From Natrinema saccharevitans (lineage in GTDB: Archaea > Halobacteriota > Halobacteria > Halobacteriales > Natrialbaceae), in assembly GCF_001953745.1 (NCBI RefSeq), contig NZ_LWLN01000001.1, positions 744,001 to 808,000 on the forward strand: a stretch of DNA of 64,000 nt. Direction: 5' to 3'. Of this stretch, positions 17,694-51,659 are shown one piece after another. Each line of letters starts with the position of its first letter. Position 1 is the first letter of the stretch. Below the pieces are notes generated by a model that saw only the letters and a list, made by a program, of their open reading frames with translations, ran no database searches and was not told where the DNA came from. The translations under genes and the position numbers were made by a program.

Positions 17694-18653
17694 TCACGCG
17701 CCGCTCGGCGCGTCGCGTTCGGCGGTCAGTTCCGCCCGGTCCACGTCGGTCAGTCCGTACAGGTAACCGAAGCCGACCGCTGCGGTAAAAATAAAGATAG
17801 TCACGAGCTGTTGGACCTTCGCACTCGAGGGCCGTCGCACGAGTTCCGACAACCGACTCGGAACGAACTCGAGCATGAGTTGTCCGAGATACTCGTTTTT
17901 ATCCCCCTTCGCCTCGGGTAACAGCAGGTCCATGATTCGTTTCGAGTAGCCCTGCCAGAACGAGCGGGCGACGAGCCACCGGAAGTCGCCCCGGTAGTCG
18001 AACAGCTTGTGGTGGACGACCGCGTCGGTGTTGTAGATCACGCCCTTCCCGTACTTGTTCGCCATCCGAATACAGACCGGTGCTTCGTGGGCCTGGATGT
18101 GGCGGTCGCCCTTTCGGCCGGTGTTCTCGTCGTAGCCGCCGACGGCAAGGAAGACGTCCCGCCGGTAGGAGATGTTCGAGCCGTACGTGTTTCGCAACTC
18201 CTCCATGTGATCCCCCATCCCGCGCTCGTCACAGCCGACGAGCCAGTAGAACTCCGCGGGGAAGAAGTCGGGCTTTTCGGTCACCCAGTCGGGGGCGACG
18301 TGGCCGCCGACTGCGATCGCGTCGGTCTCCTCGTAGACGCGAGCCAGTTCCGCGACCCAGTCCGCTTCGGCCACGGCGTCGTCGTCGATGAACGCGACCA
18401 CGTCGCCGGTCGCGATCTCGGCTCCGCGAGTTCGACTGTAAGAGATGCCCTGGTTCTCGTCGTTACAGTGGAGAACGACGTCCTCGAGGTCCCCGTAGTC
18501 GTCTCGCACGCGGTCGAAGACCGGCTCGTTGCCGTCGACGACGAGGACGATCTCGAGCGGGTCGTAGGTCTGTGCGAGGACGCTATCGACACACTCGGAG
18601 AAGACGTCGTACCGGTCCATCGCGTACGTACAGATGACGACGGAGACCTTCAT
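17694..18653 (-). CDS. aglG: Glucosyl-dolichyl-phosphate glucuronosyltransferase AglG
   Basis: 319 aa, ATG 18653. GT2 domain: MKVSVVICTYAMDRYDVFSE, VLVVDGNEPV, the DxD region VVAFIDDDAVAEADWV (~85-100), NISYRRDVFLAVGGYDE, HEAPVCIRMANKYGKG and a C-terminal hydrophobic stretch (TIFIFTAAVGFGYLYGL, ~285-301) that anchors it to the membrane. Haloferax AglG adds the second sugar, a hexuronic acid, whose donor would come from AglF/AglM. It is divergent from aglB and shares an identical 12-bp promoter core with it. AglE/AglI-like GT2 enzymes are the alternatives. Confidence 0.85.
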   Translation of the reverse strand: MKVSVVICTYAMDRYDVFSECVDSVLAQTYDPLEIVLVVDGNEPVFDRVRDDYGDLEDVVLHCNDENQGISYSRTRGAEIATGDVVAFIDDDAVAEADWVAELARVYEETDAIAVGGHVAPDWVTEKPDFFPAEFYWLVGCDERGMGDHMEELRNTYGSNISYRRDVFLAVGGYDENTGRKGDRHIQAHEAPVCIRMANKYGKGVIYNTDAVVHHKLFDYRGDFRWLVARSFWQGYSKRIMDLLLPEAKGDKNEYLGQLMLEFVPSRLSELVRRPSSAKVQQLVTIFIFTAAVGFGYLYGLTDVDRAELTAERDAPSGA

Positions 18654-18825
18654 CGGGAATCGATTTCGGAGAGGCGAGAATAAGCCTTTTCCTTCAGTGC
18701 CCCGCTCGGCGGAGGAACGGTCCGAAAATAGGTGTGTCGTCGCTCCCGGCCCTCGGGTGACGGGATATCAAACGCCGACGCGTATATGACAAGGCTTATT
18801 CTTGACTTGGGTCTGGTGGAACCTA
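18654..18825. promoter_or_regulatory. Divergent aglG/aglB promoter region with identical 12-bp cores
   Basis: AAGGCTTATTCT occurs at 18791-18802 on the plus strand, 35 to 24 bp before the aglB ATG, and again on the minus strand at 18677-18688, 35 to 24 bp before the aglG ATG. The position fits a TATA/BRE core for two leaderless transcripts. The DUF368 gene also has AAGGCTT at -33 (21779-21785). The identity suggests that aglB and aglG are read by the same basal factor set. Confidence 0.65.
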
Positions 18826-21759
18826 ATGAGTACGGACACCGAACGCGTCGACGAGGGAACTGAAACCTCCACCCTCGAGACGCTACAAAACTGGTATCAC
18901 CTCCCCGTACTCGGGGCCGTGATGCTGTTTATGGTCTGGTTGCGGACCCAGTCGTACGATCGGTTCGTCACCGGCGATGGAACGCCCGCGCTCGCGGGTA
19001 TCGACTCGTGGTATCAGTGGCGGACGATCAGCTGGACGGCCGAGAACTACCCGCACACGATGCCCTACGAGGTGTGGACCGGGTTCCCGACCGGCACCTC
19101 CGTCGGTCAGTTCGGGACGCTGTTCGATCAGCTCATCGTCACGGCCGCGATGATCGTCGGCCTCGGCGATCCGTCGCCCCAAACGCTGTACGCGGTCTCC
19201 CTGCTCGCGATCCCCGTCATGGCCGCCCTGGTCGCGATTCCCGTCTTCTACGCGGGCCGCCGCCTCGGCGGCACCATCGGTGGGCTCGTCTCCGTGGTCG
19301 TTCTCGCGCTCTCGAAGGGGCAGTTCCTCTCGCGATCGACCGTCGGCCAACTCGATCACCACGCCGGCGAGGTCCTGTTCATGGCGTTCGCCGTCCTCGC
19401 GATGATGGTCGCACTGACCGCGGGGGAACGCGAAAAGCCGGCGTACGAACTGCTCGCCGCGAAAGACTGGGACGCGCTGCGAACGCCGGCGATCTACAGC
19501 GCTCTCGCGGGCCTCGCCATGGCGCTGTACGTCTGGGTCTGGCCGTCGGCGATCGTCCTGATCGGCATCTTCGGTGTCTTCTTCGCCGTTCAGCTCTGTC
19601 TCGACTATCTCCGAGGCGTCTCGCCCGATCACGTCGCCTTCGTCGGTGCCATCAGCTTGGGCGTCACGACCGTCCTGACGACGCTGCTGATCGACCAGGC
19701 CGGGATCGGAATCACGAGTTTCAGCTTCCTCCAACCGCTGAGCGCGCTCCTCGTCGCCCTCGGCTGTGTCTTCATGGCCTGGCTCGCTCGGGAGTGGAAC
19801 AATCGGGACCTCGATCGGCGCTACTACCCGGTCGCTATCGTCGGTATCGCCGCCGCCGCGGTGCTGGTCATGTGGGTCGCGCTCCCCGGCCTCTACGACA
19901 CGTTCGTCGGGAACCTGACGAGCCGACTGCTGCCGCTCAACCCGAGTACGGGGACGCTTACGATCCAGGAAGCCCAGCCCCCGGACGCCTTCTTCGAGCA
20001 CGTGTTCCGGGAGTTCGGCAGCGCGTTCTACACGATGCTCGCGGGACTCACGTTCCTCGCGATCCGTCCCCTGCTGGGCCGGAAGTTCCGGGCTGAACAC
20101 ACCCTCGTCATCGTTTGGTCGCTGTTCCTGATCAGCATGACCGCGACCCAGGTCCGGTTCTCGTACTACCTCGTCCTCGCGGTCGCGATCGTCAACGCCG
20201 CGTTCATCGCGGAACTCGTCCAACTCTTCAGTCTCGATCTCACGGGGAGTCTCGAGTCGATCAAATCGATCGAGACCTACCAGGTGATCGTCGTCGTTCT
20301 CGTCGTCGTCCTCTTGTTCGCGCCGTTGCTTCCGCCGCTGGCGACGGCGACCGCGTGGGGGAGCGCCCAGGGTGGCGGACCGCATCCTTCCGCTACGACG
20401 TGGGAGGACTCCAACGAGTGGCTCCAGGAGAACACGCCGGCACCGGGTAACTACGGCGACGCGAACAACGCCGATCAGCTCGACTACTACGGTACGTACT
20501 CCCCCGAGGGTAGCGATTACGAGTACCCCGAGGGCGCGTACGGCGTGCTGTCGTGGTGGGACTACGGCCACCTGATAACGACCCAGGCCGAGCGGATTCC
20601 CCACTCGAACCCGTTCCAGCAGAACGCACGATCCTCGTCGGCGTTCCTGACCGCCCAGTCCGAGGAGCGAGCGGAGCTGATCCTCGACGCGATCGCCACC
20701 GGCGAATCCGTCTCCGAGCAGTCCAACGAGGAACTCGAGACGATCGTCGAGGGCAACGAGACCGACGAGGAGATCCGGTACGTGATGATCGACGATCAAA
20801 TGATCGGCGGGAAATTTAGTGCGATTACGGCATGGACCGGGCCGGACTACGCTTCGTATGTCCAGAACGAACAGTATCGATCCGGTAATAGTACGGTTCA
20901 GCTTCCGTCAAGCAACGAAAACTACGAAAACACGACGATTGCGTCGCTGTATCGGCAGGACGCGGCCAGCATGGAACACTACCGGCTGGTTCACGAGAGC
21001 GACGACTACGCGATCGTCGGCGGGATGCAGGTCGGGAATCAGCGACTCCCCCACTATTCACTCTCGTTTAGCCAGTACAACCGTGCGACCGGACAGAATC
21101 TCGAGACTGGCTGGAGCAATCAGACGGCCGCGATCCAGCAACAGCTCGCACAGGCCCGAAGCAACGATCAGGTGTATCAACAACTCGGCGTTCCGATGTG
21201 GGACGCTCACGTCGAGTCGAGAGTCAAGACCTACGAACGCGTCGAGGGAGCGACGATTACCGGCAGCGTCGACGCCGAGTCGATCGACGCCGACAACGCC
21301 ACGGCCGTAGTCAGCGTCCCGCTCGAGACGGGTCCCGGACGGACGTTCTCCTACAGGCAGAACGTCGACGTGGACGCGGACGGCAGTTTCGAGGTGACCG
21401 TCCCGTACGCGACGAATGACGAACTCGGTGTCGAAGACGGCCACACCGACAGTAGCGTCGAAGCGCTGGGCAACTACACCGTTCGAGCAATCGCGCCGTC
21501 CGGCAACGAGACCGTCCAGTACGGCGGCGAAACGACGGTTCCGGAACCGGCCGTCGTCAACGGCGAATCGGTCGACGTCTCCCTCGAGGAGATCGAGACC
21601 GACACGGGCAACGAGAGCGACGAAACTGCTGGGAACGAAACGACCGGCAACGAGGCGGACGACGACGGCACGACCGACGATGGCACGACCGACGACGGCT
21701 CGACGGACAACGAGACGGCGGCGGCCGTCGCGCCGATCGCCGCCGATCCGGCGACCTGA
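18826..21759 (+). CDS. aglB: Oligosaccharyltransferase AglB (STT3 family)
   Basis: 977 aa, ATG 18826. About 13 transmembrane segments fill residues ~25-515, including the EL1 region around GIDSWYQWR with its catalytic Asp and STVGQLDHH. The extracellular C-terminal domain starts with the invariant peptide-binding motif WWDYGH (~577) and has the DK-type motif MIDDQMIGGKF (~654). It transfers the dolichol-phosphate-linked glycan to Asn in N-x-S/T sequons of the S-layer and archaellins. The tail is Asp/Glu/Thr-rich (DDGTTDDGTTDDGSTDNET) and itself contains several N-x-S/T sequons. The nearby glycosyltransferase genes supply its lipid-linked substrate. Confidence 0.97.
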   Translation: MSTDTERVDEGTETSTLETLQNWYHLPVLGAVMLFMVWLRTQSYDRFVTGDGTPALAGIDSWYQWRTISWTAENYPHTMPYEVWTGFPTGTSVGQFGTLFDQLIVTAAMIVGLGDPSPQTLYAVSLLAIPVMAALVAIPVFYAGRRLGGTIGGLVSVVVLALSKGQFLSRSTVGQLDHHAGEVLFMAFAVLAMMVALTAGEREKPAYELLAAKDWDALRTPAIYSALAGLAMALYVWVWPSAIVLIGIFGVFFAVQLCLDYLRGVSPDHVAFVGAISLGVTTVLTTLLIDQAGIGITSFSFLQPLSALLVALGCVFMAWLAREWNNRDLDRRYYPVAIVGIAAAAVLVMWVALPGLYDTFVGNLTSRLLPLNPSTGTLTIQEAQPPDAFFEHVFREFGSAFYTMLAGLTFLAIRPLLGRKFRAEHTLVIVWSLFLISMTATQVRFSYYLVLAVAIVNAAFIAELVQLFSLDLTGSLESIKSIETYQVIVVVLVVVLLFAPLLPPLATATAWGSAQGGGPHPSATTWEDSNEWLQENTPAPGNYGDANNADQLDYYGTYSPEGSDYEYPEGAYGVLSWWDYGHLITTQAERIPHSNPFQQNARSSSAFLTAQSEERAELILDAIATGESVSEQSNEELETIVEGNETDEEIRYVMIDDQMIGGKFSAITAWTGPDYASYVQNEQYRSGNSTVQLPSSNENYENTTIASLYRQDAASMEHYRLVHESDDYAIVGGMQVGNQRLPHYSLSFSQYNRATGQNLETGWSNQTAAIQQQLAQARSNDQVYQQLGVPMWDAHVESRVKTYERVEGATITGSVDAESIDADNATAVVSVPLETGPGRTFSYRQNVDVDADGSFEVTVPYATNDELGVEDGHTDSSVEALGNYTVRAIAPSGNETVQYGGETTVPEPAVVNGESVDVSLEEIETDTGNESDETAGNETTGNEADDDGTTDDGTTDDGSTDNETAAAVAPIAADPAT

Positions 21760-21811
21760 TCGGCCGACGACGAGAAGAAGGCTTTTGCGAGATCCGTTCC
21801 AAACATCGACG

Positions 21812-22765
21812 ATGCGGGAGCTTTTCGCCGTCTACTTGAAGGGATTCTCCATGGGGTCTGCCGACGTCGTGCCCGGTGTGTCGGGCGCGACGATCGCGCT
21901 GATTCTCGGGATCTACGATCGGTTGATTCGGGCGATCACGACGATCGATCCCCGAAAATTTCGATCGACGTGGCGACTCCACGAGCCGGCCCAGCGAGCG
22001 GCCCTCCGAGTCGAACTCGAGCGGATCGACGCCGGGTTTCTGACGGCGCTCGGACTGGGGATCGCGACGGCGATCGTGGTTCTGTCGCGGGTGTTACACG
22101 CCGCGATAACCGAGTATCCGGTGCCGACTTATGGCTTTTTCTTCGGGTTGATCGGCGCGTCGGCGATCGTGTTGTACGGCGAGATCGATCGCTGGACCGC
22201 CCGTCGGATCGCCGTCTCGATCGCGGGGATCGCGATCGCCGCCGCGATCACCGGCGTGACGGCGGCCGGCGTCTCACACGGGCCGGCGATGATCGTCCTC
22301 GCGGGTGCGATCGCGGTCTGTGCGATGATCCTACCGGGGATCTCGGGGGCCTTTTTCCTGTTGTTACTGGGCCAGTACGAGTTCATGACCGCGACGCTGA
22401 CCGCGTTCGTCGACGGCCTGTTCGGGCTGGCTGGCGGCGGCGCCGCCGGGCCGGTCGTCGAGTCGGGGACCATCGTCGCGCTGTACTTGCTCGGGACGGT
22501 GATCGGGCTGTTTACGATGGCACATATCGTCCGCCGCGCGCTCGAGCGCTACCGGGCGGCGACGCTTGCCGTTCTGGTGAGTCTGATGGTGGGGGCGTTG
22601 CGCCTGCCGGCGACCGAGATCGCGACCAACGTCGGGCCGGAGCCGACCGCGACGCTGCCGACTGCGGTGGCGGCGGGGATCGTCGGCGTCGTCGCCGTCC
22701 TACTGGCGAACCGATACACCGCCGGACTCGAGTACGACGACCCCGCCGGCGATAGTAGCAACTGA
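21812..22765 (+). CDS. DUF368 family polyprenyl-phosphate translocase (PopT-like)
   Basis: 317 aa, ATG 21812. It starts with KGFSMGSADVVPGVSGATIALILGIY, the DUF368 signature, repeated in inverted-repeat fashion as ILPGISGAFFLLLLGQYEFM in the second half; about eight to ten transmembrane segments in all. Bacterial DUF368 proteins (PopT) were shown to return undecaprenyl phosphate across the membrane. Directly downstream of aglB (52 bp), it is well placed to recycle dolichol phosphate left on the outer face after glycan transfer; this role is inferred. Its stop codon lies at the edge of a diverged copy of the palindromic element. Confidence 0.85.
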   Translation: MRELFAVYLKGFSMGSADVVPGVSGATIALILGIYDRLIRAITTIDPRKFRSTWRLHEPAQRAALRVELERIDAGFLTALGLGIATAIVVLSRVLHAAITEYPVPTYGFFFGLIGASAIVLYGEIDRWTARRIAVSIAGIAIAAAITGVTAAGVSHGPAMIVLAGAIAVCAMILPGISGAFFLLLLGQYEFMTATLTAFVDGLFGLAGGGAAGPVVESGTIVALYLLGTVIGLFTMAHIVRRALERYRAATLAVLVSLMVGALRLPATEIATNVGPEPTATLPTAVAAGIVGVVAVLLANRYTAGLEYDDPAGDSSN

Positions 22766-22841: not shown

Positions 22842-24005
22842 TCAGCCGTCGCCGTCGGCCGTCGTCAACGCGCGGAACGCGATCGTCGGAAACCGCGGTT
22901 CGACCGTACTCGGCCGGCGACCGCTGCCGCTCGACGTTACCGTCACGGGCAGTCGTTCGACGACGCCCCGGTCGGCGAGTTCGTACAGGAACCGTTCGAC
23001 CGTCCCGGCGGTCAGCGACGACCGATCGGCGACGGCGGCCGCGATCTCGTCGATCGGCCGGTCGTCCGGCTCGAGCGCGACCAGCGCCGACAGCACCCGC
23101 TGGCGGGTTTCCGAGAGCGCCAGCGCCCGAGCGACGTGGACGCCGTCGTCGGGGACGGCCGCACGGGCCCGCTCGAGGTGGGGCCGCTCGATCCGATCGG
23201 CGTCGTCCTCGACGGCGAGGACGGCCGCGCCGAACAGCGCCGCCAGCGCGTCGTGGGCGTTCCCGTCGGCCCAGGCCGCGAGGTCGCGGACGGCGTCGTG
23301 ATCGAGCGCGCCCGCGGCGAGCCCCGTGGAGACGCGATCGGTGATCACGTCGACGAGTTCGTGATCGCGGTAGGCCGGGACGGTGACGGTCGGTCCCTCG
23401 TGATCGGCCGGTTCGGATGCGCCGACCGAGACGACGGTGACCCGATCGGCGACGGGCGCGAGCAGTTCCCGGCCCTGGTCGGCCCCGAGCGCCTCGGGTT
23501 CGTCGTGGTGATCGACGGCGACGACCGCCCGCCGATCGGCGCGGCGCAGTCGCTTGCGGAGTCGGTCGCGCAAGTCGTCGGTCCCGACGCCGCTCTCGGG
23601 GACCCGCTCGCTCGAGAGCCCGGACAGCACCGCCCGGTAGAACGCGAAGGGGCTCCCGACCCGGCGGCCGTCGACGGTGACGAACCAGGTCGCCGGGCCG
23701 GTGGTGCCGCCGCGGGTCGTCGTCTCGATCGCCCGGCTCGAGCCGCCGAACCCCTCGTCCATGGCGTCGAACAGCGCCGTCACGATCGCCGACGTGCCCG
23801 AGCCGGCGGGGCCGACGACGGCGACCGGGGGCGGCAACTCGCCGTCGAAGACCGGCTCGAGGGCGTCCAGCAGTTGCTCGAGGACCGGGCCCCGGCCGAT
23901 CGGCTCCGGCCGGTGGACGACCGGACTGAGCGCGTTGCGATCGACGACGAGCCGTCGCCCCTCTCGGGCCGACCGCCGTCTGGCGATCCGTTCCTGCAGG
24001 TCCAT
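22842..24005 (-). CDS. Orc1/Cdc6-like AAA+ protein with degenerate ATPase motifs
   Basis: 387 aa, ATG 24005, whose first base pair is shared with the glpC stop (TAATG). It has the Orc1/Cdc6 plan: the PIGRGPVLEQLLDALEPV lid before Walker A (~32-50), a P-loop GPAGSGTSA, an Orc-like LALSETRQRVLSALVAL, and a C-terminal winged-helix (~310-370). Key residues are lost: the Walker A Lys is replaced by Thr (GSGTS), Walker B reads AVVAVDHHDE and the sensor-1 Asn is absent (VVSVGASEP). It is therefore probably not an active ATPase. The overlap implies translation with glpC; a replication role is unlikely on this evidence. Confidence 0.75.
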   Translation of the reverse strand: MDLQERIARRRSAREGRRLVVDRNALSPVVHRPEPIGRGPVLEQLLDALEPVFDGELPPPVAVVGPAGSGTSAIVTALFDAMDEGFGGSSRAIETTTRGGTTGPATWFVTVDGRRVGSPFAFYRAVLSGLSSERVPESGVGTDDLRDRLRKRLRRADRRAVVAVDHHDEPEALGADQGRELLAPVADRVTVVSVGASEPADHEGPTVTVPAYRDHELVDVITDRVSTGLAAGALDHDAVRDLAAWADGNAHDALAALFGAAVLAVEDDADRIERPHLERARAAVPDDGVHVARALALSETRQRVLSALVALEPDDRPIDEIAAAVADRSSLTAGTVERFLYELADRGVVERLPVTVTSSGSGRRPSTVEPRFPTIAFRALTTADGDG

Positions 24006-25354
24006 TACTCCGCGCGTGCCCCCGTCGCGTTCGCCCCTGTCGCGTCCGCCCCGTCCCCGACGAGCGCCGCCGCAAGCACCTCGAGGGTGTGGGTGATCTC
24101 GTAGCCGGTGCCGTGTTCCATCTGCATCGAGCAGGTCGGACACTCCGTCAGGCCCGCCGTCGCGTCCGCGTCGTCCATGTGATCGAACATCTCCGCCCCG
24201 ATCGCCATGGAGGTTTCGTAGTTCTCCGCCTTCCAGCCGTAGGTGCCGGAGATGCCCGAACAGGAGTCGCCGACGTCGTGGGCCTCGACGCCGTCGATCA
24301 GGCCGAGCAGTTCGACCGTCTGACCGTCCAGACCCTGATTGCGGGCGTGACACGGCGCGTGGTAGGCGAAGTCGTCGAACTCCTCGCCGACTGCCGTCCC
24401 CTCGAGTTCGGTCTCGAGGTCCTCGTGGACCCGCAGGTACTCGACGGCGTCCCAGGTGTTCTCGGCGACGGCCTCGGTGTCCTCGAAGTCGAACAGTTCG
24501 GGGTACTCCTGGCGCAGCGACATCGAACACGAGCTACAGGAGGCGACGACGTCGGCCCCGTCGTCGATGGCCGCGGCGAGTTCCCGGACGTTCGTCTCGG
24601 CGGCGCGACGGGCGTCCTCGAGCATGCCGTTGGCGAACATCGGGGTCCCCGAACAGTCCTGCTCGGGGACCATGATCTCGTAGCCGAAGTGTTCGTAGAC
24701 GCGGACGAGCGCCTTCGCGACCTCGGGGGTGTTGTAGTTCGAGTAGCAGCCGTGGAAGTAGGCGATGCGCTTGTCGGAGTTCTCGACCCGTGCGCCGCCT
24801 CGCTTCGTCCACCACTCGCGGAACGTCTCGGTCGCGAACTCGGGCAACTCCCGCTCGCCGGCTATTCCGAGCAGTTTCTCGCCGAGCCACCGGGTCGCCG
24901 ACAGCCCCGTGACAAAGTTCGCCGTCCGGGGGAACATGGCCCCCAGCGGGGCGAGTCGGCGGTAGTTCGCGAGCATCCGATTGCGCCAGTACTCCCGGGA
25001 GAACTTGCTCACGTTCTCCTCGACGTACTCGGCGCGGGCGGTGTTGTGCATCTGCGAGAGCGGCACGTCCGAGGGACAGGCGCTATCACACCGCATGCAG
25101 TTCGAACACTTCATCACCGACTCGTCGATGTCGTGGTCGTCCTGCCGTTTGAGCCGCCACTGCTCGGGCCCCTGGAACTTCGGACCGGGGAACTCGTCGT
25201 CGACCTCGGCGACCGGACACTCGGTGTCGCAGGTCGAACACTTGTAGCAGTCGTCCGCGCCCGGCCGGAGGTCGGTCTCCCCGGCCTCCGGAAAGACCTC
25301 GATCGGTTCGAACTCGTCGCCACTGTCGTCGGTCGGTCGTTCTGCGTCGCTCAT
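24005..25354 (-). CDS. glpC: Anaerobic glycerol-3-phosphate dehydrogenase subunit C
   Basis: 449 aa, ATG 25354. Two ferredoxin-type [4Fe-4S] motifs: CYKCSTCDTECPV (~36-48) and CSNCMRCDSACPS (~84-96), then two CCG domains with the cysteine clusters CSGTPMF, CSSCSMSL, CHARNQG, CSGISGTYG and CPTCSMQM. The subunit links the GlpAB dehydrogenase to the membrane and passes electrons to menaquinone. It lies 40 bp after glpB in the order glpA-glpB-glpC. In haloarchaea this enzyme set is used in aerobic glycerol catabolism, glycerol being abundant from Dunaliella. Confidence 0.93.
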   Translation of the reverse strand: MSDAERPTDDSGDEFEPIEVFPEAGETDLRPGADDCYKCSTCDTECPVAEVDDEFPGPKFQGPEQWRLKRQDDHDIDESVMKCSNCMRCDSACPSDVPLSQMHNTARAEYVEENVSKFSREYWRNRMLANYRRLAPLGAMFPRTANFVTGLSATRWLGEKLLGIAGERELPEFATETFREWWTKRGGARVENSDKRIAYFHGCYSNYNTPEVAKALVRVYEHFGYEIMVPEQDCSGTPMFANGMLEDARRAAETNVRELAAAIDDGADVVASCSSCSMSLRQEYPELFDFEDTEAVAENTWDAVEYLRVHEDLETELEGTAVGEEFDDFAYHAPCHARNQGLDGQTVELLGLIDGVEAHDVGDSCSGISGTYGWKAENYETSMAIGAEMFDHMDDADATAGLTECPTCSMQMEHGTGYEITHTLEVLAAALVGDGADATGANATGARAE

Positions 25355-25394: not shown

Positions 25395-26699
25395 TCATCG
25401 ACACCCCTCCGCGGCGCGTCGGCCCGCGACGTAGCCCGTCGCGAGCGAGACGCCGCTGCCTGACTTCTCGGCCGCGAAGTCGTGGCCGCCCAGTACCGCC
25501 CCCGCGGCACGGAGGTTCGCGAACTCGAGGGCGTCGTCGGCGTCGAGCGGGCGGAGGTCGCGGTCGACCGGCAGGCCGAAGCGGGCGTATGGCTGGTCGC
25601 CGAAGACGTCGTCGACGAACCAGTCGTAGCGGTCGGCGGGGTGGGGGACGTGACAGTCGAAGACCGGTTCCGAGACGCGCTCGCGGTCGGACTCCACGCC
25701 CTTCCCCACGAGTCCGCCGGTCGCGAGGACGTACTGGTCCGCGCTGTGGGGAACCTCGCTCCCGTTGCGGTCGACGGTGACGCGGTCGATCCGCGCGGGG
25801 CCGCTCGAGCCCGCGCCGTGGGCCCCGGTCTCGTAGTCGACGACCGGTACCCCCGTCGTCACGCGGACGCCCGCGTCCGAGAGCGCGTCGAACAGCAGGT
25901 CCTCGAGGCGCAGTCCGGGGAGGCTCGGCGGCCCCATCGGGACCTCGAAGACGTCGACGCCGAGCCGGTCGGCGAGATCGGCCCTGACCGCGTCGGCCCG
26001 ATCGTCGCCGAGGACCGCCGGGAACCCGACGCGGGACTCGCCCTCGAGGTGGGGACGGACCGTCTCGGCCAGCGCCGTTCGCGCGGTGGACTCGCCGGCC
26101 GCCGTCTCGACGCGTTCGTCGCGGTCGAGCAGGTGGGCGTAGCGCGTGACTTTGGCGTCGTCGCGCTCGATGCCGGGAAAGCGGACCGTGACCCCGCGGG
26201 CCGCGAAGGGGACGCCCGCGCCCTCGAGGTGGGCCGCCGCCAGCGGGGCCTCGAAGTCCGGCAGCGTCCCGAAGCCGACGAGCAGGGCGTCGCGGTCGTC
26301 GCTCGCCAGCCCGGCGGCGGTCGCGGCCGGGTACCGCGCGGTCGGTTTGACGGTGCCGCCGTGGGTCGGGACGAGCGCGTTGGCGTCGGTGTGTGCGCCC
26401 GCGTATGCGTCGCCCGCGATCCCGTCGAAGAAGGCGAGGGCGTCGCGGACCGCCTCGGCCCCGACTCGCTCGTAGGGGTGGCCCTCGGGGAGGTCCGCGA
26501 GGGCGGGAAACGGGTCCGAGAGCGGCCCCTCGCCCGCCGGCGTATAGCCCAACACGTCGATCAGGCCGCTGGCGTGGCGGAGCGTGCTCTGCTTGTGGGA
26601 AACGAGCCGGACCCGAACGTCCCGCTCGACCGCGGCCAGCGCGGCGGTCGCGCCGGCCAGCCCGCCGCCGACGACGAGGACGTCGTCTTCGATGGCCAT
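25395..26699 (-). CDS. glpB: Glycerol-3-phosphate dehydrogenase subunit B
   Basis: 434 aa, ATG 26699, directly adjacent to the glpA stop (TGA-ATG). N-terminal FAD-binding Rossmann motif VLVVGGGLAGATAAL (residues 7-21), then KQSTLRHASGLIDVLGY, typical of GlpB flavoproteins; a Gly-rich C-terminal segment (NLRAAGAVLGGHDF) binds the flavin pyrophosphate. GlpB pairs with GlpA in the dehydrogenase that oxidises glycerol-3-phosphate to dihydroxyacetone phosphate. Coupled translation with glpA fits a fixed stoichiometry. Confidence 0.92.
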   Translation of the reverse strand: MAIEDDVLVVGGGLAGATAALAAVERDVRVRLVSHKQSTLRHASGLIDVLGYTPAGEGPLSDPFPALADLPEGHPYERVGAEAVRDALAFFDGIAGDAYAGAHTDANALVPTHGGTVKPTARYPAATAAGLASDDRDALLVGFGTLPDFEAPLAAAHLEGAGVPFAARGVTVRFPGIERDDAKVTRYAHLLDRDERVETAAGESTARTALAETVRPHLEGESRVGFPAVLGDDRADAVRADLADRLGVDVFEVPMGPPSLPGLRLEDLLFDALSDAGVRVTTGVPVVDYETGAHGAGSSGPARIDRVTVDRNGSEVPHSADQYVLATGGLVGKGVESDRERVSEPVFDCHVPHPADRYDWFVDDVFGDQPYARFGLPVDRDLRPLDADDALEFANLRAAGAVLGGHDFAAEKSGSGVSLATGYVAGRRAAEGCR

Positions 26700-28400
26700 T
26701 CAGTCGTCCCTCCGAGGCTCGGCCCCTCGAGCCCCGCCGTCGTCGAACGCCGCGAAATCGACGTCCCCGGTCGCGTCCGCGGGATCCCGATCGCGGTTCA
26801 TCGTCGTCGCGTGCAGGGCGTAGTTGAGCATCGCCTGCGAGAGCTGTTCGCCCCACAGGGCGTGGCGTTGCCCCTTCCAGCGCTCGGCGAAGAGCTCGTC
26901 GAGCGCCGCCCGGACCGTCGCCTCGTCGTACTGGGGGTGGAGTTCGTGGGCCACGTTCTGACAGCAGAACCCGCCCTGACAGTTCCCCATCGAGGCCCGC
27001 GTCCGGATGCGGACCGCGTTCAGGTCCGCGCCCGACCCCTCGATCGCGTCGCGGACCTCCGCGCGGGTCACGCCCTCGCACTGGCAGATCACCGGGTTCG
27101 GCTCGTCGGTCTCGAGGACCTCGCTCGCCCGGCTCCCCAGCCGTTGCTTGCTCCGGCGGGCCACCGGCGAGCGCAGCCCGAAGTCGTCCATCCCCGCCTC
27201 GAGCCGCTCGAGGTTCTCGCTGCCGGGCAGGGGTTCGTCGGCGGTCGAACACGAGGCCGTGACGCCCAGTTTCGCACAGACGTGGTCGGCGATCTCCTCG
27301 GCCATCGCCCGGTAGGTGGTGAACTTGCCGCCGACGATGCTCGAGATCCCGGCGACGCCGTCGCGGTCGGCGTGATCGAGCAGGAAGAAGTCCCGCGTGA
27401 TGTCGGTCGGGTCCTGCGTGTCGGTCCCCGGCGGCTCGTAGAGCGGGCGCACGCCCCAGAACGAGCGGATGGTCCGCGATTCGGCGAGGATCGGAACCAG
27501 TTCCGAGAGCGTGTCGATCATCGCCTCGACCTCCCACCGTTCCTCGGGGTAGTCGTCCGGATCCGCGACCTCCTCGTCGGTCGTCCCCAGGATCGCGGTC
27601 GTCTCGTGGGGGACGACGATGTCCGCGTCGCCTTTCGGCCGACAGCGGTTGATGACGGTGTCGACCTGCCGGACGTTCATGATGGTCATGACGCCCTTGG
27701 AGGGGCGGACCTCGATTTCCAGGTCGGCCATCGAGCCGATCTGGCCCGCCCACGCGCCGGTCGCGTTGACGACGTACTCGGCGGTGATCTCCTCGGTGGT
27801 CCCGGCCGCGGCGTCGCTTCGCTTACCGGGCCCGGCACCGTGGCGGACCTCGACCCCGTAGACGTCGTCGCCCTCGCGCAGGAGGTCGATCACCTCGGCG
27901 TGGGTCTCGATCCGCGCGCCGTGGGCCTCGGCGTCGACGGCGTTTGCGACACAGAGCCGGAACGGGTCGACCGCCCCGTCGGGCACCTCGATCGCCCGCT
28001 CGACGTCCTCGGCGAGGTAGGGTTCGATCTCGCGGGCCTCTCGCCCCGAGAGGACCCGTGCCGGAATTCCGCAGTCGCGACAGCCCTCGAGTTTTGCCCG
28101 GAAGTAGTCGTCCGAGTCCTCGGGCCGTTTTACGAACAGGCCGCCGGTCTCCTCGACGCAGTGACCGGCGATCTCCCGGAGCGTTTCGTTCTCCTCGATA
28201 CACTCGGTCGCGCTGGCCCGATCGGAGACGGCATAGCGGCCGCCGCTGTGTAACAGGCCGTGCATCCGACCGGTGGTGCCGTCCGTGAGGGTCCCCCGTT
28301 CGACGAGCGTGACTTCGAGACCGCGGGTCGCAAGATCGCGGGCGATCCCACAGCCGGTCGAGCCGCCGCCGAGGACGAGAACCTCGGTGTCCCGTACCAT
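26700..28400 (-). CDS. glpA: Glycerol-3-phosphate dehydrogenase subunit A
   Basis: 566 aa, ATG 28400. FAD motif [21 protein letters not shown] (7-27; GxGxxG variant), [13 protein letters not shown] (substrate and flavin region), KGVMTIMN and the [11 protein letters not shown] segment; C-terminal BFD-like [2Fe-2S] domain with CQCEGVT (~427) and GNCQGGFCC (~460-468). Catalytic subunit, with glycerol-3-phosphate going to dihydroxyacetone phosphate. A TATA-like ATAAAATAAA on the minus strand at 28431-28440 lies ~31-40 bp upstream, implying a near-leaderless mRNA. First gene of the glpA-B-C unit. Confidence 0.95.
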
Positions 28401-28640
28401 TCGTTCACCGGACCTACGTCGACGGCACTCTTTATTTTATCGCCGCAACCCTAACGCTCGTAACTCAATCGTGATACGTCGCCGTCGACGACGGACTGAC
28501 GGACTACTCGCCGTCTCGGCCCCCAACATACCCATCGTTCGTGAGGCTGTTGATAACATTTATAATGGTCGTCGGTGTTGTTTACTGGTATCACGCGACC
28601 GGCAGTAAACGAATCGCGTGGCGATACGAGGTGACTACCA
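28401..28640. promoter_or_regulatory. Divergent glpACB / glpK control region
   Basis: Two promoters face away from each other: minus-strand ATAAAATAAA (28431-28440) for glpA and plus-strand TTTATAAT (28559-28566) for glpK. A perfect inverted repeat, GTTTACTG (28580-28587) and CAGTAAAC (28603-28610), with 15 bp between, covers the expected glpK transcription start. Its placement fits a repressor operator; haloarchaeal sugar/glycerol genes are regulated by the DeoR-type GlpR, but its exact operator cannot be confirmed here. Confidence 0.6.
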
Positions 28641-30182
28641 GTGCCAGACACAACGTACGTCGGAGCGGTCGACCAGGGAACGACCGGAACCCGGTTCATC
28701 GTGTTCGATCACGAGGGTCAGGTCGTCGCGAACGCCTACGAGACACACGAACAGATCTATCCCGAGCCCGGCTGGGTCGAACACGACCCGATGGAGATCT
28801 GGGAGAACACCACGGCCGTGATCCAGCAAGCGCTCGGACGGGCGGGGATCGCCCCGTCCCAGCTCGCGGCCATCGGCGTGACCAACCAGCGGGAGACGAC
28901 GGTTCTCTGGGACGCCGACAGCGGGAAACCGGTCCACAACGCCATCGTCTGGCAGGACCGGCGAACCACCGATCGCGTCGAGTCCCTCGAGGCGGAGGGG
29001 AAAGTGGCGGCGATCCGGGAGAAGACCGGCCTCGAGGCCGACGCCTACTTCTCGGCGACGAAAGCCGAGTGGCTGCTCGACAACGCCGATCCGATCAAAC
29101 TCGAGCGCGCTCGGCCCGAGGACATCCGCGACCGCGCGGAGAAGGGAGACGTTTTGTTCGGGACGATCGACACGTGGCTGATCTACAACCTGACCGGGAA
29201 CCACGTCACCGAGGTCACGAACGCCTCGCGGACCATGTTGTACGACATCCACGACCTCGAATGGGACGAGGACCTCTTAGCGGAGTTCTCGATCCCCGAG
29301 GCGATGTTGCCCGAGGTCCGGCCCTCCAGCGACGACGACACCTACGGCACGACCGACCCCGACGGGTTCCTCGAGGCCGAGGTGCCGGTCGCGGGCGCGC
29401 TTGGCGACCAGCAGGCCGCGCTGTTCGGCCAGACCTGTTTCGACGCCGGCGACGCCAAGAACACCTACGGCACCGGCTCTTTCTTCCTGATGAATACCGG
29501 CGACGAGGCCGTCGAGAGCGATCACGGGCTGCTGACGACGATCGGCTTCCAGCGCTCGGGAGAACCGGTCCAGTACGCGCTCGAGGGGTCGATCTTCGTC
29601 ACCGGCGCGGCCATCGAGTGGCTCGAGGACATGACGCTGATCGAGGACCCCGCCGAGACGGCGGAACTCGCCCGCAGCGTCGACTCGACCGACGGCGTCT
29701 ACGTCGTCCCCGCGTTTACGGGACTCGGCGCGCCCCACTGGGACCAGCGCGCCCGCGGCACCATCGTCGGCATGACCCGCGGCACCCGCAAGGGACACGT
29801 CGTTCGCGCGACCCTCGAGTCGATCGCCTACCAGACCCGCGACGTCGCCGAGGCGATGGAGGCCGACTCGGGGATCGAGATGACCTCGCTGAAAGTCGAC
29901 GGCGGCGCGGTCAAGAACAACTTCCTCTGTCAGCTCCAGTCGGACATCATCGGCTCGGAGATCGTCCGCCCCGTCGTCGACGAGACGACGGCGCTTGGCT
30001 CGGCCTACGCGGCCGGCCTCGCCGTCGGCTACTGGGACGACCCCGACGAGCTGCGGAGCAACTGGCAGGTCGACGCCGAGTTCGAGCCCGAGATGGACCC
30101 CGACCGCGCGGACCGCCGATACGAACGCTGGAACGACGCCGTCGAGCGCTCGCGCGACTGGGCGCGTGATGAGGAGGAGTAA
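28641..30182 (+). CDS. glpK: Glycerol kinase
   Basis: 513 aa from GTG 28641. FGGY family: N-terminal YVGAVDQGTTGTRFIVFDH (ATP phosphate-binding loop), GWVEHDPMEIW, GVTNQRETTVLWD, WQDRRT, GDQQAALFGQTCF (Asp general base), KNTYGTGSFFLMNTG, and the C-terminal DGGAVKNNFLCQLQSDIIG. It phosphorylates glycerol to sn-glycerol-3-phosphate, the substrate of GlpABC encoded divergently. It is followed after 2 bp by a membrane protein gene. Two flanking promoter elements and an inverted repeat suggest regulation by glycerol or a GlpR-type repressor. Confidence 0.97.
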   Translation: MPDTTYVGAVDQGTTGTRFIVFDHEGQVVANAYETHEQIYPEPGWVEHDPMEIWENTTAVIQQALGRAGIAPSQLAAIGVTNQRETTVLWDADSGKPVHNAIVWQDRRTTDRVESLEAEGKVAAIREKTGLEADAYFSATKAEWLLDNADPIKLERARPEDIRDRAEKGDVLFGTIDTWLIYNLTGNHVTEVTNASRTMLYDIHDLEWDEDLLAEFSIPEAMLPEVRPSSDDDTYGTTDPDGFLEAEVPVAGALGDQQAALFGQTCFDAGDAKNTYGTGSFFLMNTGDEAVESDHGLLTTIGFQRSGEPVQYALEGSIFVTGAAIEWLEDMTLIEDPAETAELARSVDSTDGVYVVPAFTGLGAPHWDQRARGTIVGMTRGTRKGHVVRATLESIAYQTRDVAEAMEADSGIEMTSLKVDGGAVKNNFLCQLQSDIIGSEIVRPVVDETTALGSAYAAGLAVGYWDDPDELRSNWQVDAEFEPEMDPDRADRRYERWNDAVERSRDWARDEEE

Positions 30183-30184
30183 CG

Positions 30185-31258
30185 ATGCTCCAGCCGCTCG
30201 TTACCGTCCCCGTCGTCGGCATGGAACTCGAGGCCTTCGCCGTCCTCCTGCTCGCCGCCCTCGCCGGCGGCGCGTTCGGCGCGGCCCTCGGTGCCCTCCC
30301 CGCGTTCGTCTTCACCGGCTTCGTCGTCTTCCTCGGCGAGGGGCTGGCCGTTCTCGAGGGCGAACTCGGCGGCCTCGAGGGCGTTCCCGCCGGTGACATC
30401 GCGACCGGCGTCACCGGGACGATCGGTTTCGGGGCTGTCACCGGCCCCCACATCGCCTTCGCCGGCGGCGTCGCCGCGACGGCCTACGCCGGTCGGGCCC
30501 ACCCCGAGATGGAGCCCGACGACTGGGATTACCACTTCGGCAAGGACATCCTCTACGCGTTCGGCACGAAACCGGACATCCTCGCGGTCGGGGCCGTCTT
30601 CGGCGCGATCGGGATGCTCATCACCCGAGTCATGGGCGAGCTCGGCTTCCCGACCGACAACATCGCGCTGTCGGTCGTCGCGACGGCCTTCCTCGCCCGA
30701 CTCGCGTTCGGGTACCCGATCGTGGGCCGGGTCGGCGGCTCGAGCGTCCTCGACATGTCGCCGTTCGAGCGCGAGGAGAAGCGCGTGGCCGCCGACGGCG
30801 GCGCCGAGACCGACCGGCTGGCGACCGAGCCCTGGCTCCCCCACCAGTACGAGTGGACAGGCGTGACCGCCATCGGGATCGTCGGCGGGCTGCTCGGGGG
30901 CTACATCTGGCTCGAGACCGGGAGCGTCTTCATGGGCTACGCGATTTCGGCGATGAGCCTGCTCTTCCTGAACCTCGGCGTGGAGAAGATTCCGGTCACC
31001 CACCACATCACGCTGCTGGGATCGACCGGCGCGGTGATCGCGGCGTCGGCCGTCGGCAGCGACCCGGTCGTGTTGCTCGTCGCCGGCGCGTTCGGCGCGA
31101 TCAGCGCCCTCGTCGGCGAACTGTCCCAGCGGGTGTTCTACTCGCACTCGGGGACCCACGTCGACCCGCCCGCGATGGCCATCGCGGCGTTGATGCTCGT
31201 CATCGGCGTCCTCCATCTGGCCGGATTGCTCCCCAACGCGGGCTATCTCGCTCTCTGA
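30185..31258 (+). CDS. Polytopic membrane protein cotranscribed with glpK
   Basis: 357 aa, ATG 30185, two bp after glpK. About nine to ten hydrophobic segments: FAVLLLAALAGGAFGAALGA near 15-35, VTGTIGFGAVTGPHIAFAGG near 80, ILAVGAVFGAIGMLITRV near 140, and repeated small-residue helices up to GVLHLAGLLP near 345. The spacing to glpK implies translation from one mRNA. Haloarchaea have a conserved membrane protein at this place in the glp locus, proposed as a glycerol permease; no MIP/aquaporin NPA motif is visible here, so if it moves glycerol it is a different fold. Function inferred from context only. Confidence 0.7.
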   Translation: MLQPLVTVPVVGMELEAFAVLLLAALAGGAFGAALGALPAFVFTGFVVFLGEGLAVLEGELGGLEGVPAGDIATGVTGTIGFGAVTGPHIAFAGGVAATAYAGRAHPEMEPDDWDYHFGKDILYAFGTKPDILAVGAVFGAIGMLITRVMGELGFPTDNIALSVVATAFLARLAFGYPIVGRVGGSSVLDMSPFEREEKRVAADGGAETDRLATEPWLPHQYEWTGVTAIGIVGGLLGGYIWLETGSVFMGYAISAMSLLFLNLGVEKIPVTHHITLLGSTGAVIAASAVGSDPVVLLVAGAFGAISALVGELSQRVFYSHSGTHVDPPAMAIAALMLVIGVLHLAGLLPNAGYLAL

Positions 31259-31395: not shown

Positions 31396-32076
31396 ATGAC
31401 CGCCGATCCGCCGCTGGTGCTGGACATCGACGGCACGCTGACCCGCCCGGAAGGGTGGGGCATCGATCCCCGCGTCTTCGATGCGATCCGCCAGTGGGAC
31501 GCGCCCGTCGTCATCGCCACCGGGAAGGCCTTTCCCTACCCCGTCGCCCTCTGTCACTTCGTCGGGATTCCGGAACTCGTCGTCGCCGAGAACGGCGGCG
31601 TCGTCTACACCGGCGACGACGTGTTCTTCACCGCCGACTGCGAGGCCGCTCGAGCCGTCGCCACGGAGTACCGCGCCGCCGGTTACGACCTGGGCTGGGG
31701 GGAGGAAGACACCGTCAACCGCTGGCGCGAGACCGAGATCGCGATCAACTTGGAACAGCCGCTCGAGCCCCTGCGCGAGATCGCCGCCGACCACGGTCTC
31801 GAGGTGATCGACACCGGCTACGCCTACCACGTCAAGGACACCGATCCGAACAAGGGCGAGGGACTCGAGACGATCGCCGACCGCGTCGGGATCGACCTCG
31901 CCGACTGCGTGGCCGTCGGCGACTCCGTCAACGACGTCTCGACGTTCGAGGCCGTCGGCCGGAGCTTCGCCGTCGGCAACGCCGACGAACTGGCGAAAGC
32001 GGCCGCCGACGAGGTCCTAGACGGCGTTCACGCCGACGGGACGCTCGCGGTCCTCGAGCGGGTCCGCGGGTCGTAG
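31396..32076 (+). CDS. Phosphoglycolate phosphatase, archaeal HAD type
   Basis: 226 aa, ATG 31396. HAD motif I LVLDIDGTLTRP (Asp nucleophile ~10, acid/base Asp ~12), motif II VIATGKAFP, then a Cof-type C2 cap (~80-150) and motifs III/IV KGEGLETIADR...VAVGDSVNDVSTFEAVG. It hydrolyses 2-phosphoglycolate (or a related sugar phosphate), a Mg-dependent cytoplasmic reaction. The archaeal subfamily (Thermoplasma-type) is recognised by length (~225 aa) and the NxxDVSTF motif. Other small HAD-IIB phosphatases are the alternative. A monocistronic unit. Confidence 0.85.
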   Translation: MTADPPLVLDIDGTLTRPEGWGIDPRVFDAIRQWDAPVVIATGKAFPYPVALCHFVGIPELVVAENGGVVYTGDDVFFTADCEAARAVATEYRAAGYDLGWGEEDTVNRWRETEIAINLEQPLEPLREIAADHGLEVIDTGYAYHVKDTDPNKGEGLETIADRVGIDLADCVAVGDSVNDVSTFEAVGRSFAVGNADELAKAAADEVLDGVHADGTLAVLERVRGS

Positions 32077-49395: not shown

Positions 49396-49478
49396 TTCCA
49401 ACGGGACTATCGCAGCCACTGAAACGATTGCCGCGTTGACTCGAAGACGAATACGGCGACGATGGGTGGCGAAGAGAC

Positions 49479-49500
49479 ACACCCCGTGTTGCCGCTGTAT
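49479..49500 (-). repeat. ORB repeat, single copy in reverse orientation
   Basis: Reads on the minus strand as ATACAGCGGCAACACGGGGT plus GTG. It is the only one of the well-conserved copies in this orientation and defines the left border of the origin. Initiator (Orc1/Cdc6) proteins bind such repeats through the winged helix and the initiator-specific motif. The G-run end points away from the interior, mirrored by the right array. Confidence 0.85.
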
Positions 49501-49902
49501 CGATCCGTGAGATTCCGTCTTCCTCGGGAAATCCCCGGATTTCGGTTCACGGATTGCCGTGCGCTGCCGAAAGCGGTTCCGACACCGAGGCTCTAGTTCC
49601 GATCAAAATCACCAATGGTATATACGAGTCCTGTGTCATCGTTCATTGAGTGCCTTGGAAGCGGTAGCGTCCAATTGGTCTTGGACGCGTCTTCGACGCT
49701 CGAGACGAAGGATACCGTCGCTTTTGCGCCGTTTTCGGCCGAATCGTTGGATCCACGTCGGAGTCGCTGCTGGTCGGTACGGATTCCGTAGCCGGTGCCG
49801 CACCGTGTCCTATCGTTCGTTCGACCCGATCTCCCGTTCGTTCGGCCTGCTCTCTGGATCGATATCTGACCCCCGCTTCGAATCGACGGCCGCCACCACG
49901 AC

Positions 49903-50416
49903 TATACAGCGGCAACGCGGGGTGTGTGTCTCCACATACAGCGGCACCGAGGGGTGAAAACCGATCGACTCACGGCCGATAGAAACTCTTTTTACCCGAT
50001 ACAGCGGAAAGACGGTATCCGTCCCGGTCGCCGGGTCGAGTCCGTATCCGTCGACAACGGTCGTCTGACCCGGCTAACACCACTGGCGACTCGCCGCCGT
50101 CCAGTTCGCTCCCCCCGTCGCGCGGCCGCCGTGCTATACAGCGGCACTCCGGGGTTCGCCACTGCGGCTGTCTCGAGGCTATACCGCTGCGCTCGGGGAT
50201 TTTCCCCATCTATACAGCGGCACTCCGGGGTTCCGACCCGGTTCGATTCCAGCAGGGTTGCAGTTCTTCGACGGCAGTGGCCGACAGCCCAGTACGTTCC
50301 CATACAGCGGCATTGAGGGGTGAAAATAGGCCGATACAGCGGCACTACGGGGTGTAGATTCCCGGAATTTACCGGCTCAAGACGGAAAGTTTAGACTATA
50401 CAGCGGCACTCCGGCC
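49903..50416 (+). repeat. ORB repeat array, forward orientation
   Basis: Seven well-conserved forward copies of TATACAGCGGCA...: 49903, 49936, 50135, 50211, 50302, 50334 and 50397, with the variable middle (ACTCC, ACCGA, ATTGA, ACTAC) followed by GGGG, often GGGGTG. The last copy (50397-50416) ends 43 bp from the orc1 ATG and ends in GGCCCC instead of GGGG. Partial forms are at 49999 and 50180. Spacing is irregular (33 to ~200 bp), as in other haloarchaeal origins. The last copy so close to the start may also autoregulate orc1. Confidence 0.92.
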
Positions 50417-50459
50417 CCGAACGGTTAAGTGGTCGACGCCGAAAGTCGCCGGTACCCGA

Positions 50460-51659
50460 ATGTCGGACTCGACGGACTACTTCGGAAGCGAGAACGAAAT
50501 CTTCCGGAACAAGGAGTTGCTGCAGGTGTCACACCTCCCCGACGGCGATCGGATCATCGGCCGCGAGGACGAACTGACGAATCTCGCGAACGCGATCAAA
50601 CCGGCGACCAGGGGACACACGCCGAACAACGTCCTCGTTTACGGGAAGACGGGAACCGGGAAGTCGCTGTGTTCGAAGTTCATCACCAATCAGGCGATCG
50701 AACGCGCGGAGGGAAACGACGTCTCGATCGGCGTCGCGTACGTCGACTGCCTCCAGGAGTCGACGGAAACGCAGGCAGTGCAGTCCACGGGTCACCAACT
50801 CAACGATCAGTCCGAGACTGACGTCTCGATCCCACACTCGGGGCTGAGTACGGCCGAATACTACCGCCGCCTGTGGCACATCGTCGACACCTGCTACGAC
50901 GTCGCCCTGATCATCTTGGACGAAGTCGACAAGATCGAGGACGACGACATCCTGATGCAACTCTCCCGAGCGGTCGAATCCGGCAAACTCACCGAGAGTA
51001 CCGTCGGCGTCATCGGAATCTCGAACAAGGTCCGGTACAAGGACTCGCTGGACGAGCGAATCAAATCCAGTCTCTGTGAACGCGAGTACGTCTTCTCGCC
51101 GTACGACGCGACCCAGATCCGGGAAATCCTGCGCTCGCGGTCCGACGCGTTCCACGAGGGCGTCCTCGAGGACGGCGTCGTTCCCCGCGTGGCGGCGCTC
51201 GCGGCCCGCGAACACGGCGACGCACGGAAGGCGATCGACATCCTCCGCTTTGCGGGTGAGATCGCCGAGGAGAACGCCCTCGAGACGGTCACGGAGGACT
51301 GCGTCGATCAGGCACACGAGCGCGAGGAGACCAGCCGACTGGCCGAGCTGATATCCAAAAGCCCCAGTCACGCGAAACTCGTCCTCGAGGCGATGGCGCT
51401 GTTGACTCAACAAAAGGAGGGCGACGACGCGCCGGTGACGACTAACGAGGCGTACGACCTCTACAAGCGCCTCTGCGATCGGGACGGCTCGGAACACCTG
51501 AAGCTCCGTCGCGTTCGCGATATCCTCTCGGAACTCGAGTTCCTCTCGATCATCGACCAGGAGCGCAAGTGGGCCGGGAAGGGGAAGGGAAATTACATGG
51601 AGAATCGACTGATCGACGATCCAGAGGTCATCATCGCCGCCTGTAACGAGTCCGAGTAG
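50460..51659 (+). CDS. orc1: Orc1/Cdc6 replication initiator
   Basis: 399 aa, ATG 50460. AAA+ ATPase with Walker A GKTGTGKSLCSKFI (~62-75), Walker B ALIILDEVDKI (~150-160), sensor 1 VIGISNKVRYKDSLDERIKSSL, sensor 2 GDARKAIDILRFAGEIA, and a C-terminal winged helix (~300-390) with NYMENRL at the wing. All canonical ATPase residues are present, in contrast to the Orc1-like protein at 22842-24005. Placed directly next to its ORB array, it most likely binds it and loads MCM. Multiple orc paralogues, each with own ORBs, are usual in haloarchaea. Confidence 0.96.
   Translation: MSDSTDYFGSENEIFRNKELLQVSHLPDGDRIIGREDELTNLANAIKPATRGHTPNNVLVYGKTGTGKSLCSKFITNQAIERAEGNDVSIGVAYVDCLQESTETQAVQSTGHQLNDQSETDVSIPHSGLSTAEYYRRLWHIVDTCYDVALIILDEVDKIEDDDILMQLSRAVESGKLTESTVGVIGISNKVRYKDSLDERIKSSLCEREYVFSPYDATQIREILRSRSDAFHEGVLEDGVVPRVAALAAREHGDARKAIDILRFAGEIAEENALETVTEDCVDQAHEREETSRLAELISKSPSHAKLVLEAMALLTQQKEGDDAPVTTNEAYDLYKRLCDRDGSEHLKLRRVRDILSELEFLSIIDQERKWAGKGKGNYMENRLIDDPEVIIAACNESE

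Follow-up and report, generated by a model that had tools for sequence, protein, structure and literature searches.

Gene arrangement at the glp locus

The stretch of DNA analysed here (the window, 64 kb) contains a set of glycerol genes in which glpA, glpB, glpC and a gene that we designate orcX follow each other in this order on the minus strand, with glpK divergent from position 28641. The orcX gene (22842–24005, minus strand; ATG at 24005–24003, stop codon ending at 22842) encodes an Orc1/Cdc6-derived pseudo-ATPase of 387 amino acids, with an AAA_16 domain, a Cdc6-type lid and a winged helix. It is preceded on the same strand by glpC (24005–25354), which encodes subunit C of glycerol-3-phosphate dehydrogenase and was assumed to start at MSDAERP, by glpB (25395–26699) and by glpA (26700–28400). 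The glpC stop codon overlaps the orcX ATG (TAATG, one base common to both), as an earlier note on this DNA had described. The same note gave the partner as glycerol dehydrogenase, which is the wrong enzyme, as glpC is part of the glycerol-3-phosphate dehydrogenase GlpABC. The junction was surveyed in 42 loci of the window's relatives and could be resolved in 41: the two genes overlap by 1 nt in 30 loci, by 4 nt in five and by 10 nt in one, abut in four and are separated by a 2-nt gap in one.

On the plus strand, the promoter of the glycerol kinase gene glpK (28641–30182) contains a TATA box, TTTATAA (28559–28565), 21 nt ahead of a perfect dyad, GTTTAC-N19-GTAAAC (28580–28610), which we propose as the OrcX operator. 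A weaker dyad-like site, with a matrix score of 8.5, is present in the glpA promoter (28435–28465, minus strand). A conserved gene for a hydrophobic, membrane-type protein (30185–31258, plus strand) starts 3 nt past glpK. Its product, 55 % identical to the Haloarcula counterpart and without a match in Pfam or NCBIfam, is probably a membrane protein and a candidate glycerol transporter. A HAD phosphatase gene (31396–32073, plus strand) lies further on; the protein resembles phosphoglycolate phosphatase, with a score below the equivalog cut-off.

Fold and ATPase motifs of OrcX

The AlphaFold2 model of OrcX (pLDDT 87.6) had its best PDB matches among archaeal Orc1/Cdc6 proteins (Foldseek, 2v1u_A, E 6.9e-18). 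In VIA comparisons the model gave a Z of 22.4 with 2qby_A (rmsd 6.2, 322 aligned) and of 22.3 with 2v1u_A (rmsd 6.0, 334 aligned), and a profile built from 26 OrcX relatives found 2qby_A with E 6.5e-26. With archaeal Orc1/Cdc6 as the solved structures nearest to the model, the Orc1 architecture that the earlier note had recognised is confirmed. Pfam gave AAA_16 (7e-13), with the Cdc6-type lid and winged-helix families below cut-off. The NCBIfam Orc1/Cdc6 model TIGR02928 scored 66.3 bits against the whole protein, under its curated cut-off of 181.3, and a genome search with it returned two OrcX pieces of 35.8 and 27.2 bits. PF09079 (Cdc6_C) was detected in none of 26 OrcX members at E 0.01; it matched five of the eight Orc paralogues of the window's own genome.

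The C-terminal winged helix (residues 287–387; 22845–23147, minus strand), when compared alone, gave a Z of 10.5 with yeast Cdc6, 9.5 with 2qby_A and about 8 with MarR-type structures. Since this domain by itself ranks Cdc6/Orc first, divergence is a simpler explanation than a domain swap. The swap had been considered because of Pfam IclR and HVO_A0261-type matches, the lack of Cdc6_C and a weak profile match to the Lrs14-like regulator 6cmv (E 5e-4), and was rejected on the fold ranking, which favours Cdc6/Orc.

Residues were counted in 158 OrcX rows, each of at least 300 aa and with duplicate species counted in, and the motifs were compared with those of the eight Orc paralogues of the window's genome. 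The degenerate Walker A motif GPAGSGT (codons 65–71; 23793–23813, minus strand) has Thr in place of Lys at residue 71, and Walker B has Asp-His, i.e. His in place of Glu, at codons 165–166 (23508–23513, minus strand). All three features reported in the earlier note, a P-loop GPAGSGTSA without Lys, a Walker B reading AVVAVDHHDE and a missing sensor-1 Asn, were confirmed in the sequence. The corresponding motifs of the canonical paralogues L202–L204 are GKTGTGKS, ILDE, GISN and GDARKAI.

The change of the Walker-B Glu to His is found in all 158 rows, the sensor-2 Arg in none, and Asn is not among the commonest residues of the sensor-1 columns (192–197). The Walker-A Lys is present in 114 rows and replaced by Thr in 44, all of the window's family. 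The loss of ATPase motifs is thus conserved family-wide for the Walker-B Glu, but the loss of Lys that the earlier note had placed beside it is limited to one family. The initiator-specific motif region, identified from PMC9738581 together with the alignment to the canonical paralogues, contains Gly139 in 158 and Pro136 in 157 of the 158 rows, and T335, R338 and R351 of the winged helix are invariant. With the Walker-B Glu and the sensor-2 Arg gone, and Gly139, T335, R338 and R351 retained throughout, ATP hydrolysis appears to have been lost at the root of the OrcX family and the DNA-contact features to have been kept.

In the phylogenetic tree OrcX was monophyletic with respect to the eight Orc paralogues, on a long stem with a support of 100. 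The Thr-type rows, all from one family and all linked to glp, fall in a clade of 45 rows with a single Lys-bearing member nested inside. This member is the OrcX of Halopiger goleimassiliensis (L041, 6001–7146), in which the P-loop Lys is an apparent regain. In three genomes (G047, G105 and G045) the glp-linked copy has Thr and a second copy still has Lys. Loss of the Lys was a single late event in one family, which rules it out as the event that defined OrcX. The dN/dS values were 0.075–0.29 for nine close pairs of the Lys-less (Thr) clade, 0.252 and 0.046 for two Lys-type pairs and 0.023–0.168 for five pairs of glpC. Such low values indicate that orcX is under purifying selection and is not a decaying gene.

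Linkage to glycerol genes

A scan of an 84,980-species genome collection gave 78 orcX loci, and in 74 of them a glp gene was present in the fetched flanks; the others are L058, which has only a 44 % GlpA-like match, L060, L072 and L077. Linkage was also determined in 50 genomes of 47 genera, picked for having OrcX and containing 58 orcX loci. In 47 of these genomes a copy lay no more than about 8 kb from glp genes, with several different arrangements of the genes, so that the linkage seen in the window extends to other haloarchaea. The 11 loci without glp linkage are mostly second copies. Three genomes had unlinked copies only: in G082 this is due to a contig break, with glpK ending one contig and orcX opening another, and in G030 orcX adjoins a 47 % identical glycerol-kinase-like gene that is below the TIGR01311 cut-off. 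The orcX gene lies directly 3' of glpC in the window's relatives. In most other loci it comes after glpK and the membrane-type protein gene (in L048 the latter stands between the two), follows glpK directly, or is oriented divergently to glpA or convergently to glpC. The earlier note had named as evidence against its reading homologues in which Walker A is intact and replication genes are the neighbours; the homologues with an intact Walker A, 114 of the 158, sit next to glp genes.

The commonest neighbours in the 46 linked loci are glpK (43), glpA (39), glpC (38), glpB (36) and the membrane-type protein gene (34). The 22 largest neighbour clusters, inspected by eye for size and N-terminus, showed no recognisable DNA-binding family besides OrcX. 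Further clusters, which we in part only presume to be AglB-like, HAD phosphatase and DUF368 proteins, were found in 20, 15 and 13 loci, respectively. In the window, genes for an AglB-type oligosaccharyltransferase and a DUF368 (PF04018-like) protein occur near glp-orcX (about 17694–22765) without obvious reason.

OrcX was present in 297 (threshold E 1e-40) and glpK in 339 (E 1e-150) of 391 genomes of the class: 294 had both, three OrcX only, 45 glpK only and 49 neither (Fisher p 3e-32, uncorrected for kinship). In two of the three genomes with OrcX only, a glpK adjacent to orcX is truncated where the contig ends. The sole genome of genus g1 without glpK is also without OrcX, and so are the listed glpK-less genomes of genus g29 (G003, G012 and G023), the absence of OrcX from G023 being deduced, as this genome is outside the 297.

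The fold of the model could suggest an ordinary role of OrcX in replication, as initiator or as regulator, its location in the glp locus being incidental. OrcX is like the Orc1/Cdc6 initiators (TIGR02928, COG1474; 2v1u, 2qby) in fold, domain order and a VIA Z of about 22, and the H. volcanii gene HVO_1537/orc15, in the same place by locus-tag order, is listed as a replication initiator in Table 4 of PMC2841640. However, the ATPase signatures are gone, PF09079 is undetected, the TIGR02928 scores (66 bits for the whole protein, 36 and 27 for the pieces) contrast with a cut-off of 181, and the linkage is to glp genes. The flanking glp genes and the overlap with glpC leave little room for an adjacent origin, whereas the canonical orc1 gene of the window (50499–51611, plus strand) has nine origin-box-like direct repeats of the ATACAGCGGCACTCCGGGGT type, plus inverted copies, alongside (49473–50419). 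We regard a replication role of OrcX as scarcely credible. The repeats and the canonical orc1 probably form a replication origin. In Table 4 of PMC2841640 orc15 is simply annotated as orc, with no origin assigned to it. HVO_1537/orc15 is likely the OrcX ortholog, as its locus tag neighbours the glp genes: glpK of H. volcanii is hvo_1541 in PMC12366361 and is written HVO_1542 in PMC3863723.

A promoter dyad that accompanies OrcX

The 31-bp dyad GTTTAC-N19-GTAAAC recurs in glpK promoters. Both the TATA box and the dyad were found in 70 promoters, and in 64 of these their first positions are 21 nt apart, the TATA box coming first. When a dyad was counted from 10 matching positions of 12 upwards, a level reached by 1–4 % of shuffles, it was present in 40/40 of the window's relatives, 54/76 other OrcX loci and 2/45 from genomes with glpK but no OrcX, counts in which rows are related and some species appear twice. 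A matrix was trained on the 40 relatives of the window only, made symmetric and given a threshold from shuffles. With this matrix the dyad was found in 66 of 76 other glpK promoters from OrcX-positive sources compared to 3 of 45 from OrcX-negative ones (MWU p 4e-14), and outside the window's family in 59 of 69 OrcX-positive promoters. For glpA promoters the corresponding counts were 53/68 and 0/25 (p 1e-10), with 38/41 in the window's relatives. Promoters of glpK entered the analysis only when the locus included the start of the gene, as was so for 116 of 137 sources. The set of 76 includes seven promoters of the window's family (L144, L145, L151, L167, L171, L188 and L199) and some species from two collections; it also takes in L156 and L162, the kinase neighbour of L162 being 47 % identical and below the TIGR01311 cut-off.

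Of the three OrcX-negative exceptions with a dyad, two are incomplete genomes, G282 (91 % complete, in 140 contigs) and G381 (88 % complete), and the third, G365, carries a disrupted orcX adjacent to glpK. In a second, genus-matched sample, consisting of 29 OrcX-positive genomes from 13 genera that also contain OrcX-negative genomes, the dyad was found in 24 of 30 glpK promoters. OrcX-positive glpK promoters without a clear dyad numbered 10 of 76 in the first sample and 6 of 30 in the second. This group includes the two sampled representatives of the large genus g30 (L154 and L170), and there glpK appears not to be the first gene of its operon. The dyad is retained in the promoters of the Thr-type family (40/40, one of these, L041, being Lys-bearing).

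On the glpK tree (148 rows) the OrcX label switches 22 times, at least 12 of them on well-supported branches; 13 of the 103 OrcX-positive rows lack the dyad and 3 of the 45 OrcX-negative rows have it. The repeated changes indicate that protein and site come and go together, and this repeated joint loss provides an unusually clean comparative test. Covariation with presence cannot name the binder, and an exact dyad that is single in the genome would also suit a different dedicated factor. A second, unlinked regulator with the distribution of OrcX, OrcX itself acting in some other way near glp, is nevertheless improbable, since no DNA-binding protein other than OrcX was recognised in the best-conserved gene neighbourhood of the 46 linked loci and the dyad was lost along with OrcX many times. 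Still less probable is that the inverted repeat is an RNA hairpin in the glpK leader and not a DNA operator. Pairing of the arms in the RNA would require a transcript that begins upstream of the dyad, but with the TATA box 21 nt upstream the start should fall within or past the first arm. In many half-sites complementarity does not extend beyond five bases, and the dependence on OrcX would be left unexplained.

In the 3.98-Mb genome of the window the exact dyad occurs once (28580–28610), with nothing at one mismatch. A wide regulon in this genome was considered but is not supported: of 34 sites in the forward pattern every one except the exact copy has two mismatches, and a reversed-pattern control gave 18. 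The promoter of orcX itself had a dyad over threshold in just 11 of 87 cases. General autoregulation through this promoter is thus unsupported, and autoregulation would depend on co-transcription with the glp genes. The full loci of unlinked or odd orcX copies (15 loci) gave two scattered near-exact matches. A 2011 study of glpK/gpdA1 regulation in H. volcanii reportedly treats these promoters and might already describe a promoter repeat, and the dyad itself may not be new.

Proposed function of OrcX

On comparative sequence grounds we consider it very likely that OrcX, derived from Orc and no longer an ATPase, regulates the transcription of glycerol catabolism genes at the dyad of glpK and glpA, probably as a repressor. 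A metabolic regulator is suggested by the repeated glp linkage, the co-occurrence with glpK and the dyad that tracks the protein, and a switch of the glycerol genes in particular by a site that is usual with OrcX and almost always gone without it. The comparative data favour the proposal of the earlier note that a dead initiator relative has become a metabolic DNA-binding regulator; the loss of the Walker-A Lys, however, is younger than the function and did not create it.

OrcX would bind the 31-bp dyad via its winged helix and probably also via the retained initiator-specific motif. The dyad would straddle the presumed transcription start of glpK, with the weaker form at glpA, and this position points to repression, most likely by blocking RNA polymerase. 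Release would follow once glycerol or glycerol-3-phosphate is present. As orcX is usually the last gene after glpABC, downstream of glpK or divergent from glpA, it may form a local negative feedback loop with the glp genes.

The same dyad could also serve an activator that brings in the transcription machinery, in analogy to the activation of DNA-damage genes by Orc1-2 of Saccharolobus. According to PMC9738581, Orc1-2 is an Orc1 protein that is not an initiator and whose raised level activates DNA-damage-response genes. The up-regulation of H. volcanii GlpABC by glycerol, described in PMC11962113, fits either sign. We find activation unlikely, as the dyad follows the TATA box at a constant distance of 21 nt and covers the presumed start instead of preceding it. 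Repression by OrcX remains our preferred reading.

The use of an Orc1 paralogue as a promoter-binding regulator is itself already known from Orc1-2 of Saccharolobus (Sulfolobus) islandicus, a global DNA-damage-responsive regulator (PMC9738581). Both proteins are archaeal Orc1 paralogues of the AAA+ type with the initiator-specific motif and winged helix kept, and the role of Orc1-2 as a non-initiator, promoter-binding regulator is the one proposed for OrcX from the covariation with the dyad. PMC9738581 describes an Orc1-2 that keeps Walker A and B and in which ATP binding is the on state and hydrolysis the off state; a K72A mutant had weaker DNA binding and E154A was not viable. OrcX, in contrast, has a native His at the Walker-B Glu and, in one family, Thr for Lys, and its site is a 31-bp dyad compared to ANTTTC for Orc1-2; stimulus and lineage also differ. 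New in OrcX would be the other lineage, the other site, a metabolic target and, judging from its motifs, the absence of hydrolysis.

The loss of the Walker-B Glu, sensor-1 Asn and sensor-2 Arg, and in the window's family of the P-loop Lys, argues against an Orc-type ATP on/off cycle, and ATP binding and hydrolysis probably do not act as the switch of OrcX. Glycerol-3-phosphate is our best guess for a ligand, based on glpK, glpABC and the ugp-type paralogue described below. Tentatively, the pocket with the near-invariant T95, T97, R98 and R114, either the nucleotide pocket or a neighbouring one, may be a sensor of glycerol-3-phosphate or another phosphorylated C3 metabolite, hydrolysis having been given up family-wide. 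A paralogue would then control glycerol-phosphate uptake, and in one family even the phosphate-binding Lys would have been replaced. If true, OrcX would be the first metabolite-responsive one-component regulator on the ORC fold.

OrcX would resemble the bacterial glycerol regulators and the haloarchaeal DeoR-family GlpR in placing carbon catabolism under a DNA-binding protein. Bacterial GlpR is released by glycerol-3-phosphate, and GlpR-type regulators have a fold unrelated to that of OrcX. The haloarchaeal GlpR represses glucose and fructose genes, not glycerol genes, and the mechanism by which glycerol metabolism is activated is not fully understood, according to a 2025 paper (PMC12853182). 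No function assigned to orcX or orc15 was found in the literature on these genes and on glycerol regulators, coverage being mostly outside subscription journals. Glycerol is a main carbon source of haloarchaea, and OrcX is a candidate regulator with an exact putative DNA site and a gene in a model organism. It may account for one of the many orphan haloarchaeal orc genes, and would exemplify the conversion of an origin-binding ATPase to a metabolic switch that works without ATP hydrolysis.

OrcX paralogues beside other genes

Second OrcX copies in L164, L168 and L169, which represent three genera, are located immediately downstream of a four-gene ABC transporter of the glycerol-3-phosphate (UgpBAEC) type. 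In L164 (3538–9161) the score of the ATP-binding subunit is above the cut-off for UgpC (452 vs 432 bits) and the binding protein matches UgpB below cut-off; the transporters of L168 and L169 were assigned from gene layout. A looser half-site search found related dyads in the three ugpB promoters, with shuffle fractions of 0.002, 0.022 and 0 of 500, and their relationship to the OrcX site is suggestive only. In L186 (7860–10678) a second OrcX copy adjoins a fructose-1,6-bisphosphatase gene.
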